Shown here: positions 18,993-42,520 of the stretch, piece after piece | Numbering within the stretch: the stretch's first letter is position 1 | Layout of the letters: every line of letters starts with the position of its first letter | NCBI GenBank assembly: GCA_030836535.1 | Contig: JAURPT010000069.1 | Location: 1-47,097 of the forward strand | Source of the DNA: Alphaproteobacteria bacterium | Lineage (GTDB): Bacteria; Pseudomonadota; Alphaproteobacteria; SMXS01 | Length of the DNA: 47,097 nucleotides | Reading direction: 5' to 3' | Position numbers and translations under genes: made by a program | Notes under the pieces: generated by a model | The model's input: the letters and a program-made list of their open reading frames with translations, nothing else | What the model was told of the DNA's origin: nothing | The model's database searches: none

Positions 18993-19586
18993 CTAGAGAT
19001 CTCTGGCAAGCTCCGCCCGGACATCCGCATTCAGCCCGGCCATATGCATGTAATTTTCATGGCGTATCGCCAACATCACCTGCGCCTCGCCGCCAGCAAA
19101 AGCCTTGGCGGCTGACTCTGTCAGCGGGAAATGAATGAAGTGCACAGCAGACGTTTTGCCGTCATCTGTGGTGCGGTCGGCATCATCTTCCGGGATGCCG
19201 GCAATTTCTTCATCGCCGACGACCAGAAAAATCTGGTCTTCAATATGGCCCATACGCGCCAGGCTGCGCGCGCGACGACCGACATCTTCAATCTCAATCA
19301 TCATGGTGGCCACCAATTCGCCGCCCTGCGGTATCAGCGGGTTATAGGCTGCCAGTTCGTCGGCAATCTGTTCTTCGCCACCTTTTTCGATATAGAGCAT
19401 TTCATGAATCTGAAACCACATGGTGTCGTGGTTTTCAAAATAGAACATGACATCAGGGCCAACGGCAACGCGGCGGTTCCGCTTGGTCGCCACCAGCGCC
19501 GAGCGGCGTTCAAGGCGCTCTTCAGCGTAGACCTCCATGGGCAGGATGTCGTCACGGGTGATCTGACGGGGGGATGCAGTCGTCAT
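18993..19586 (-). CDS. DUF3501 family protein
   Basis: A 197-residue soluble protein of unknown function that I recognise as DUF3501. Typical segments are ITRDDILPMEVYAEER at the N-terminus, VGPDVMFYFENHDTMWFQIHEML and GGELVATMMIEIEDVGRR. It has no cysteine, signal peptide or membrane segment. It starts five bases after the CCG-type Fe-S protein gene, and a rubrerythrin gene lies just beyond. This trio recurs in many bacteria, which suggests a shared job, probably in redox or peroxide defence, but no mechanism can be claimed. Confidence 0.85.
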   Translation of the reverse strand: MTTASPRQITRDDILPMEVYAEERLERRSALVATKRNRRVAVGPDVMFYFENHDTMWFQIHEMLYIEKGGEEQIADELAAYNPLIPQGGELVATMMIEIEDVGRRARSLARMGHIEDQIFLVVGDEEIAGIPEDDADRTTDDGKTSAVHFIHFPLTESAAKAFAGGEAQVMLAIRHENYMHMAGLNADVRAELARDL

Positions 19587-19591
19587 TCGTT

Positions 19592-20938
19592 CTAAACCTC
19601 AATTCCGTAGGATTTTGCCATCAGTTCAATCGGGTGCCAGGCGCGGGGGCGATCAACCCCTTCGTCTTTGGAGAGCCGCTCAATACCCTGCGACAGGTGT
19701 TCAGCTGCAAGCGGGCATTCACTGGCAACATATTCCGTGCCTTCCTTCATGGCCGCACGGGCAGCGGGCTTGCCAACCTTCAGGGCTGTTTCAAAATTGT
19801 CTTTCATTACGCCCCAAGAGCCACCATGGCCGGAGCAACGCTCAATGGCGGTAACATCTGCCCCCGGCAAAAGGTTCAGCATTTCAACTGCTTTGGGGCC
19901 CATATTCTGGGCACGCGCATGACAGGCGAGGTGCATGGCAACACCACCTTCAAGCGGTTCCAACCCATCGGCCAGGCCTTCATTGCGGGCAATATCGACA
20001 ATATATTCACTGGCATCATAGGTTGCTTGAGAGAGCGTCTTGACGTTTTCATCATCGGGCACGATGAGCGGCCATTCAAACTTGAACATCAGGGTACAGG
20101 ACGGCACCAGCGCCACAATGTCGTAGCCCTTTTCAACCCAGGGAACGAGTTCGGCTGATACCTCGCGGGCGTTTTCGGCAACCTGCTCCAGATTGCCCTG
20201 CTCTAATTGCGGCATGCCGCAGCAGCGTGGATAAACAACTTCAACCTCGACACCATTTTTAGCCAGGATACCTTCCATGGCGGTGCCGATATGCGGGTTG
20301 TTGTAGTTGGAGAAACAGGTGGCATAGAGCACGACTTTGCGACCGGCGGCTGGCGCCTCTGCCACAACGGGGGCAGGGTTCGCCTTGGCGCGTTTTTCGA
20401 ACGTCTTGCTATTGAACTCCGGCAGGAACGCTTCCTTGTCGATACCAGCGACCTTTTCCATGATCGGACGGGTCAAGCCATTGTCTTCCTTGGACGCCCA
20501 GTTGACCAGGCTGTCCATAGCACCAAAAAGCTTGCCGTTTCTGTCGGTCTTGGACAACTGGCCGGAAACGAAGGACGTGTTGCCTTCTTTGAATTCCTTG
20601 GCGCGGTAGCGCAGCATCAAGTGCGGGAAGTCGATATTGAATTCGTGCGGCGGCACGTAAGGACACTTGGTCAGGAAGCACATGTCGCACAGCGTGCAAC
20701 CGTCCACCACTGGCTTGAAGTCGTCACTGCTGACAGAGTCCAGCTCCATGGTTTCTGATTCGTCGATCAGGTCGAACAGCGTCGGGAAGGAATCGCACAG
20801 GTTAAAGCAGCGCCGACATGTGTGGCAGATATCAAAGATCCGCCGCATTTCTTCATCAAGCGCATCAGTGTCGTAGAATTCCGGATTGTGCCAATCCAGG
20901 TCGTAACGCACGGGGGCGTCGAGGCTGCCTTCACGCAT
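19592..20938 (-). CDS. Heterodisulfide-reductase-related (CCG-domain) Fe-S protein
   Basis: A 448-residue cytoplasmic protein resembling GlpC/HdrD and LutA-type subunits. Two ferredoxin-type clusters are marked by C38-x2-C41-x2-C44-x3-C48 and C81-x2-C84-x2-C87-x4-C92. Two CCG-like domains follow: the first has the canonical YPRCCGMPQLEQG near 235, the second has ERCSGHGGSWG near 364, so its Cys-Cys-Gly is Cys-Ser-Gly. There is no flavin domain or membrane segment, so electrons must come from a partner. It is co-directional with DUF3501 (five bases) and downstream of the rubrerythrin terminator. Transfer of electrons to rubrerythrin is a guess from context. Confidence 0.87.
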   Translation of the reverse strand: MREGSLDAPVRYDLDWHNPEFYDTDALDEEMRRIFDICHTCRRCFNLCDSFPTLFDLIDESETMELDSVSSDDFKPVVDGCTLCDMCFLTKCPYVPPHEFNIDFPHLMLRYRAKEFKEGNTSFVSGQLSKTDRNGKLFGAMDSLVNWASKEDNGLTRPIMEKVAGIDKEAFLPEFNSKTFEKRAKANPAPVVAEAPAAGRKVVLYATCFSNYNNPHIGTAMEGILAKNGVEVEVVYPRCCGMPQLEQGNLEQVAENAREVSAELVPWVEKGYDIVALVPSCTLMFKFEWPLIVPDDENVKTLSQATYDASEYIVDIARNEGLADGLEPLEGGVAMHLACHARAQNMGPKAVEMLNLLPGADVTAIERCSGHGGSWGVMKDNFETALKVGKPAARAAMKEGTEYVASECPLAAEHLSQGIERLSKDEGVDRPRAWHPIELMAKSYGIEV

Positions 20939-21056: not shown

Positions 21057-21476
21057 TTAACCGTCGAGGTTATCAAGAGCCTTCTGGAAACGACCAGCGT
21101 GGGAACGCTCGGCCTTTGCCAGGGTCTCGAACCAATCGGCAATTTCGTCATGGCCTTCTTCACGAGCAGTCTTGGCCATACCCGGGTACATGTCGGTGTA
21201 TTCGTGGGTTTCACCGGCAATGGCGGCCTTCAGGTTATTTTCTGTAGAACCAATAGGTTCACCGGTTGCCGGATCGCCAACAGATTCCATGAATTCCAGA
21301 TGACCATGAGCGTGGCCTGTTTCACCTTCAGCGGTGGAACGGAAAACCGTGGCAACATCGTTGTAGCCTTCTACATCGGCCTTCTGGGCGAAGTAGAGGT
21401 AACGGCGGTTAGCCTGGCTTTCGCCTGCAAAGGCAGCTTTGAGGTTTTCGAGTGTCTGTGAGCCTGCAAGAGACAT
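21057..21476 (-). CDS. Rubrerythrin (diiron peroxidase domain only)
   Basis: Diiron protein that reduces hydrogen peroxide. The 139 residues form the four-helix ferritin-like domain only; the usual C-terminal rubredoxin domain is missing, so an external electron donor is needed. Diiron ligands are visible at E19 ([10 protein letters not shown]), E52 and H55 (GETGHA), E89 and E92 (AGETHEY), E123 and H126 (KAERSHA). The start at 21476 is supported by AAGGAG seven bases upstream; the frame runs 22 codons further without homology. It is preceded by the Irr gene and by a Fur-box-like palindrome over its likely promoter, suggesting iron or peroxide control. Confidence 0.94.
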
Positions 21477-21616
21477 TGTGTTCTCCTTCTTTCTTGCGTT
21501 CATCCCTGGGTCGCCGCGAAATGGGAGCTTACAAACGGCCAACCCGAATCTGATTGAATCATCTGCAAAGGACTATGCCCCGTTGTCCCGAGAGGGTCAA
21601 CAGGTTTATTAAAATA

Positions 21617-21649
21617 ATTATAAACTAACGTTTATGATATTGATTCTCA
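21617..21649 (-). promoter_or_regulatory. Putative rubrerythrin promoter with Fur-type box
   Basis: Read on the minus strand, TGAGAATCAATATCA (21649-21635) matches the Fur 7-1-7 consensus at 12 of the 14 defined positions. It begins at the irr stop codon. Directly after it lies ATAAAC-GTTA-GTTTAT (21635-21620), a perfect six-base inverted repeat, which overlaps a consensus TATAAT (21622-21617). No good -35 hexamer is present; the Fur-like box occupies that position. Binding here would block the promoter. Fur/Mur (42095) and Irr (21647) are both encoded in the window and either could be the regulator. Confidence 0.5.
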
Positions 21650-22063
21650 ATCTTTTTCGAGTTGGATGATAACATCCACTCGACCGATTTTTGAACCGTC
21701 TGGCGCTTCCGGCAACCCACTGAGGATAATGCTGTCCTGCGGAATATCCTGCAGCTGTTCTTCATCAGCATCATAGAAATGATGATGATCATCCGTATTG
21801 GTATCGAAGTAGGTTTTGCCCGAGCCAATCACGATCTGGCGCAGCAAGCCAACATCGGTGAACTGATGCAGCGTGTTATAGACAGTAGCTAATGAGACCT
21901 TGGCACCATTCTTGAGCACATCTTCATGCAGGGCTTCTGCTGTGACGTGCCAGTCTTCACCCCGTTCAAACAACAGCTTGGACAACAGCAGGCGCTGGCG
22001 CGTCGGACGCAATCCTGCGTCCTGAATCATCTTGAGGGCCTGTGCGTAAGGGCGTGTACTCAT
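21647..22063 (-). CDS. irr: Iron response regulator Irr (Fur family)
   Basis: Alphaproteobacterial Fur-family regulator that senses haem/iron status and represses or activates iron and haem genes. The 138 residues show LRPTRQRLLLSKLLF (winged helix), SLATVYNTLHQFTD (recognition helix), GLLRQI, KTYFDTN and the characteristic triple His (HHH, 93-95), followed by QDIPQDSIIL and GRVDVIIQL. There are no CXXC zinc motifs and no N-terminal haem-regulatory Cys-Pro, so haem sensing would rest on the His cluster. It is upstream of the rubrerythrin gene in the same direction, which makes iron/peroxide co-regulation likely. Confidence 0.93.
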   Translation of the reverse strand: MSTRPYAQALKMIQDAGLRPTRQRLLLSKLLFERGEDWHVTAEALHEDVLKNGAKVSLATVYNTLHQFTDVGLLRQIVIGSGKTYFDTNTDDHHHFYDADEEQLQDIPQDSIILSGLPEAPDGSKIGRVDVIIQLEKD

Positions 22064-42094: not shown

Positions 42095-42520
42095 TCACGC
42101 GGGTGTTTCCCCATCGTCAATCTTGACCGCATACAGCTCCAGCCGATGGTCAACCAGCTTGTAACCCAATCTGCGAGCGATCTCCTGCTGGAGATCTTCA
42201 ATTTCATCATTATTGAATTCGATCACTTTACCGGTCTGTACATCGATAAGGTGATCATGATGATCATCGGTCCGTTCTTCATAGCGGGCACGGCCATCGC
42301 CAAAGTCGTGACGATCGAGGATGCCTGCTTCATCAAACAGGCGCACCGTACGATAAACTGTGGCAATGCTGATTTTCGGGTCAATCTTCGCTGCCCGTTC
42401 AAACACCTCTTCCACATCCGGATGATCGGTGGCCACAGACAATACGCGCGCGATAACCCGACGCTGGTCGGTCATGCGCATTCCCTTCTCAATACAGAGG
42501 CGTTCTAGTCTGTCTGGCAT
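42095..42520 (-). CDS. fur: Fur-family metalloregulator (Fur/Mur type)
   Basis: A 141-residue ferric/manganese uptake regulator. The winged helix has MTDQRRVIARVL and the recognition helix ISIATVYRTVRLFDEAG. The metal site shows HHDHLID (87-93). The CXXC structural zinc pairs are missing, as in alphaproteobacterial Mur/Fur proteins, so manganese or iron sensing is possible. It is the second Fur-family regulator in the window, distinct from Irr at 21647. It lies upstream of plsC. Confidence 0.93.
   Translation of the reverse strand: MPDRLERLCIEKGMRMTDQRRVIARVLSVATDHPDVEEVFERAAKIDPKISIATVYRTVRLFDEAGILDRHDFGDGRARYEERTDDHHDHLIDVQTGKVIEFNNDEIEDLQQEIARRLGYKLVDHRLELYAVKIDDGETPA

Follow-up and report, generated by a model that had tools for sequence, protein, structure and literature searches.

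A probable Irr-controlled promoter of the rubrerythrin-RFO-DUF3501 genes downstream of irr, with an auxiliary Fur-type site, in an alphaproteobacterial genome

Introduction

In the stretch of alphaproteobacterial DNA analyzed here (the window; 47,097 nucleotides, one complete contig of a 2.68-Mb draft genome), the gene for the Fur-family regulator Irr is followed on the minus strand by genes for rubrerythrin (RBR, gene rbr), an RFO/GlpC-like Fe-S protein and a DUF3501 protein. The question raised by this locus is which regulator controls rubrerythrin from the irr-rbr intergenic region, and in response to which signal. A preliminary description had proposed control by Fur/Mur or Irr, with peroxide or iron as signal, acting through a Fur-type box and a second palindrome placed over a consensus -10 hexamer. 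Apo-Irr binds Irr boxes (ICEs) at heme or iron shortage and represses or activates according to ICE location (PMC7762939). The aerobic-type RBR-RFO-DUF3501 gene cluster, and RFO itself, were defined in PMC5114695, a paper on the gene cluster in which, by term count, the term Irr is absent.

Results

Genes and regulators of the locus

The features of the locus are collected in Table 1. The irr product scored above the cut-offs of both NCBIfam models, IrrA (199.7 bits, cut-off 150) and Irr (178.9 bits, cut-off 170), and carries the HXH heme-binding motif as DDHHHFYD, which alignment shows to be kept in relatives. The gene is intact and adjoins that of rubrerythrin, whose ATG start at 21476 is preceded by AGGAG and whose stop lies at 21057; the solved chains nearest to its product are 9onm, 4di0 and 8fuh. 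With an RBR lacking the rubredoxin domain and with RFO and DUF3501 alongside, the genes form an aerobic-type RBR cluster. Only two Fur-family proteins were found in the genome, Irr and a Fur/Mur-type protein, and neither exceeded the cut-off of the PerR model. In the window and in many relatives that belong to other families, roughly 18-32 kb of a single contig separate irr from the Fur/Mur-type gene, which makes this a conserved long-range linkage.

No terminator-like stem was found between irr and rbr, and Rfam returned no RNA families in the window. A terminator-like stem with a T run was observed between rbr and RFO at 21025-21011 of the minus strand, and from this stem it may be that RFO and DUF3501 are read at a lower level than rbr.

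Table 1. Coordinates of genes and control elements in the window
Feature	Position	Strand	Basis
irr, Fur-family heme/iron regulator, 138 aa, HHH (HXH) motif	21647..22063	-	NCBIfam models, alignment
Rubrerythrin without rubredoxin domain (aerobic-type RBR), 139 aa	21057..21476	-	Pfam PF02915, 110.3 bits
RFO, GlpC-like Fe-S oxidoreductase, same cluster as rubrerythrin	19592..20938	-	Pfam PF02754, conserved order
DUF3501 protein, same cluster as rubrerythrin	18993..19586	-	Pfam PF12007
Fur/Mur-type gene, sole other Fur-family gene found in genome search	42095..42520	-	Profile matches
Fur-type 7-1-7 box TGAGAATCAATATCA, 12/14, overlaps irr stop codon	21635..21649	-	Consensus match, recurrent class upstream of ICE
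Palindrome ATAAAC-N4-GTTTAT, probably incidental	21620..21635	-	Chance level, absent in L004 (same genus)
TATAAT inside degenerate Irr box, without -35	21617..21622	-	Sequence inspection
Putative degenerate Irr box (ICE) TTTATAATTATTTTAAT, 11/14, 7 nt upstream of -35	21608..21624	-	Class alignment, shuffles
Predicted -35 element TTGACC	21595..21600	-	TTGAC recurs 2-7 nt past ICE in 107 other regions
Predicted -10 element CATAGT, 17-nt spacer, predicted transcription start near 21565	21572..21577	-	Class profile, same CATAGT in L004

A probable Irr box next to the predicted rubrerythrin promoter

A sigma-70 promoter, TTGACC-N17-CATAGT, matches the consensus at 9 of 12 positions, and its hexamers and spacing are conserved across relatives. 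When 107 regions were aligned on their TTGAC, the resulting profile contained the ICE, the TTGAC itself, a modal spacer of 17 nt and, as the commonest -10 elements, CATATT and TATAGT; in L004, the only relative of the same genus, the -10 is identical to that of the window. Upstream of this promoter lies a putative Irr box, scored against the consensus TTTAGAA-N3-TTCTAAA (14 informative positions). In shuffles of the local sequence, a match of 11/14 arose with P=0.02 anywhere in the region and with P=0.002 at a spacing of 3-7 nt from the -35.

The arrangement of irr directly followed by the rubrerythrin gene is widespread in Alphaproteobacteria, and among 144 distinct irr-to-rubrerythrin intergenic regions an ICE of at least 11/14 was a constant feature, being present in 113. 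In 94 of these 113 it stands 3-7 nt before TTGAC, at exactly 3 nt in 66. The window site falls in this conserved position; the 7-nt spacing shared by the window and L004 is unusual. The mean best ICE score where irr adjoins rbr was 12.1, compared with 8.4 in shuffles. Symmetry between the box halves beyond the consensus was slight (5.62 versus 5.47 when halves were re-paired, sd 0.06) and is not relied on. In the irr-rbr intergenic region of one metagenome-assembled genome (MAG), alpha proteobacterium MED-G09 (L046), several ICE-like sites were seen in a row upstream of rbr. An ICE between irr and rbr may already have been predicted in earlier work.

The box also follows the presence of irr. 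Thirteen alphaproteobacterial genomes with rbr, in which irr was not found by protein search (Caulobacteraceae, sphingomonads and others), had upstream ICE scores of 7-9. Three Methylocystaceae in which irr lies elsewhere carry an ICE of 12/14 upstream of rbr, and one further genome with irr elsewhere (L084) has a site of 10/14, 3 nt before TTGAC. One genome that has irr (L075) lacks the ICE upstream of rbr. The positions of these elements, their conservation and the dependence on the presence of irr were directly observed in the regions compared, and the association of irr with the ICE is strong, not absolute.

Of the elements named in the preliminary description, the palindrome ATAAACGTTAGTTTAT, with perfect 6-bp arms and a 4-nt spacer, and the TATAAT hexamer that it overlaps are both present where they had been placed, and this much speaks for that model, in which TATAAT is the -10 and the Fur-type box and palindrome are its operators. 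We nevertheless consider the model very improbable. The best hexamer 15-19 nt upstream of TATAAT matches TTGACA at only 3 of 6 positions, leaving no usable -35, and 40-50 nt further on there is a better promoter, of the type that is conserved; TATAAT itself falls within the degenerate Irr box and was rejected as a -10. A palindrome with perfect 6-bp arms occurred in 17% (first 70 nt) to 25% (whole intergenic region) of dinucleotide shuffles and is for that reason unremarkable. Conservation in relatives had been named as a check on the palindrome, and its loss in L004 counts against it by that same measure; as an operator it was rejected.

A Fur-type box upstream of the Irr box

The Fur-type box had been described as a 12/14 match to the Fur 7-1-7 consensus beginning at the irr stop codon, and this was confirmed: it matches TGATAAT-N-ATTATCA at 12/14, and its first TGA forms the stop codon. 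Among dinucleotide shuffles of the intergenic region, 0.15% contained a match of at least 12/14 (P=0.0015), which places the box above chance, and the 15-mer is unique in the genome, with only two other sites within 2 mismatches. The box is absent from L004 and missing from most relatives, and its absence from L004 weakens the case for it in the lineage of the window.

Recurrence of such sites was counted in 100 regions with the ICEs set aside, using 139 permuted half-site motifs as controls. Upstream of the ICE, 13 of the 100 regions had a Fur-type site of at least 11/14 and 7 had one of at least 12/14. The permuted motifs averaged 0.55 and 0.03, and none of the 139 permutations reached the observed counts. 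Downstream of the ICE the same region set showed no excess. Carriers include Pelagibacteraceae (L048 and L050, 13/14 each), a Rickettsiales-labelled MAG (L087), Rhodospirillales MAGs (L063, L088) and several other families. The centre-to-centre distance from Fur site to ICE ranged from 19 to 54 bp across regions, with no clear helical phasing.

That the window box is a functionless chance match is unlikely in our view: while it is missing from L004 and from about 87% of related regions and overlaps a stop codon, the shuffle result and the roughly 20-fold excess over permuted controls of sites upstream of the ICE oppose this explanation. On the sequence evidence, Fur-type sites upstream of the ICE are taken as a real, optional second input. 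We further propose, tentatively and with more doubt than confidence, that the operator of the rubrerythrin cluster is a tandem one in several alphaproteobacterial lineages: a Fur/Mur site responding to metal would stand 19-54 bp upstream of an Irr site responding to heme, and two Fur-family sensors of opposite action would jointly set one promoter.

The findings that weigh against an Irr model are the modest ICE of the window, the low score of the ICE-like site ATTGGAATACCTCCAAT in L004 (just 9/14), the unusual 7-nt spacing of both, the lack of genome-wide ICE enrichment and a Fur box mostly absent in relatives. No ICE site within 1 mismatch was found in this genome, and there were 33 sites at ≤3 mismatches compared with 71 for the reversed control; a genome-wide ICE regulon was accordingly not proposed for this species. 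The weakness of the ICE here and in L004 and its lack of enrichment could mean that the Irr box has decayed in this species and that Fur/Mur alone controls rubrerythrin through the Fur-type box, which is a stronger match than the ICE. We regard this as quite improbable: L004 does not share the Fur box, the ICE-like site keeps its promoter position (in L004 it is symmetric, with the 7-nt spacing retained), and an intact irr gene lies next to rbr.

Genome-wide, 77 Fur-like sites at ≤3 mismatches were counted versus 18 for the reversed pattern. Most of the matches examined lay inside genes and only a TonB-dependent receptor was convincing, and a genome-wide Fur regulon was not accepted. Two Fur-like sites of 11/14 each lie 42 and 80 bp upstream of this receptor gene (L139, near 1501-1553; G000:C23:7475-7527), which is a plausible Fur target of this genome.

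Proposed control of rubrerythrin

Taken together, we consider it probable that the promoter downstream of irr serves the rubrerythrin-RFO-DUF3501 genes under the control of Irr, with an auxiliary Fur site in this species. From the sequence we infer the following course of events. The sigma-70 promoter would start transcription near 21565, with the ICE, drifted in this species, touching the promoter from upstream, its centre about 51 nt upstream of the start. When iron or heme is short, apo-Irr would bind the ICE and contact or cover the -35; when heme is plentiful, Irr would leave it. The Fur-type box, centred near -77, could provide a second, auxiliary input from holo-Fur or Mur, and Fur at about this position could antagonize Irr or repress. 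Peroxide could act only indirectly, via iron or heme.

With respect to the direction of control, we lean modestly towards repression by Irr at low iron, for two reasons: the -35 comes close to the consensus, and the sole precedent of the same geometry, Rhodobacter sphaeroides ccpA, is weakly repressed by Irr, its expression being slightly higher without Irr at low iron (PMC3413700). By this precedent Irr would weakly repress rubrerythrin at low iron, saving iron. In the opposite arrangement, which we consider the less likely one, Irr on its site directly before the -35 would bring in RNA polymerase at low iron, and holo-Fur on the upstream box would silence the promoter at high iron, both inputs raising rubrerythrin when iron is short. 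A site upstream of the -35 is a common activator position, and according to the review cited above Irr commonly activates genes directly, depending on where the ICE lies (PMC7762939). In Pelagibacter, iron limitation raises rbr 1.57-fold (PMC2864753), an effect that is small and that counts against repression by Irr only if the strain in question carries the same promoter. Besides the ccpA precedent, a -35 that is near consensus in most relatives should need no activator.

The class-wide ICE by the promoter, its absence in irr-free genomes and the recurrent Fur-type boxes upstream of it together uphold part of what had been proposed at the outset: the irr-rbr intergenic region is supported as the control region of rubrerythrin, with Irr the likely regulator and Fur a credible second, and the roles given to the palindrome and TATAAT fall away. 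As to the signal, rubrerythrin is probably under the control of iron and heme supply, and peroxide has no direct support given the lack of a PerR-model match among the two Fur-family proteins.

Rubrerythrin loci of gammaproteobacteria

At rbr loci that do not adjoin irr, mostly gammaproteobacterial, another 7-1-7 palindrome, TTAGACT-N-AGTCTAA, was observed in front of rbr, in most cases 40-75 nt from the ATG (L039, L058, L060, L066, L068, L100, L104, L110, L111 and L112). It usually lies about 40 nt after the start of TTGAC, that is, over the likely transcription start, and no regulator gene adjoins these loci. An Irr-like protein of the Fur family that carries the HHH motif (L303, L304, L305 and L306) is encoded in four gammaproteobacterial genomes with the rubrerythrin cluster, those to which loci L058, L066, L104 and L059 belong; the three that were scored reached 130-139 bits, just under the NCBI IrrA cut-off of 150. 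This protein is a candidate regulator of the palindrome.

Discussion

The present analysis links Irr with the soluble rubrerythrin cluster of the aerobic type in much of the alphaproteobacterial class, Pelagibacter included, and provides a testable promoter model for it. An Irr-box promoter is in itself of known type; the interesting, less usual part is the tandem Fur/Irr layout, with a Fur-type box upstream of the Irr box recurring in unrelated families. The locus allows a direct test of whether, at low iron, Irr shuts down or switches on a peroxidase that itself contains iron.

In its gene content the locus resembles the cluster of PMC5114695, with its RBR lacking a rubredoxin domain followed by RFO and DUF3501, and what is added here is the link to a regulator and the anatomy of the promoter. 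Among known ICE promoters (R. sphaeroides ccpA and mbfA, B. japonicum bfr and blr7895; PMC3413700), the palindrome is of the same type and the targets likewise handle peroxide or iron, whereas in the window the box is degenerate and irr is directly followed by its target, a soluble rubrerythrin cluster of the aerobic type. In R. sphaeroides ccpA the start lies about 40 nt past an Irr box that is bound by Irr in vitro (PMC3413700), compared with 43 nt from the ICE to the predicted start in the window; in mbfA the start lies inside the Irr box, in contrast to the position upstream of the -35 seen here. The Fur-type box shares its half-site sequence and symmetry with the 7-1-7 Fur boxes of Caulobacter (PMC3751524) and Magnetospirillum (PMC3251581), where alphaproteobacterial Fur can repress and, more rarely, activate. 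It differs from them in lying upstream of an Irr box and not over the promoter, and the protein encoded in the window is of the Fur/Mur type.
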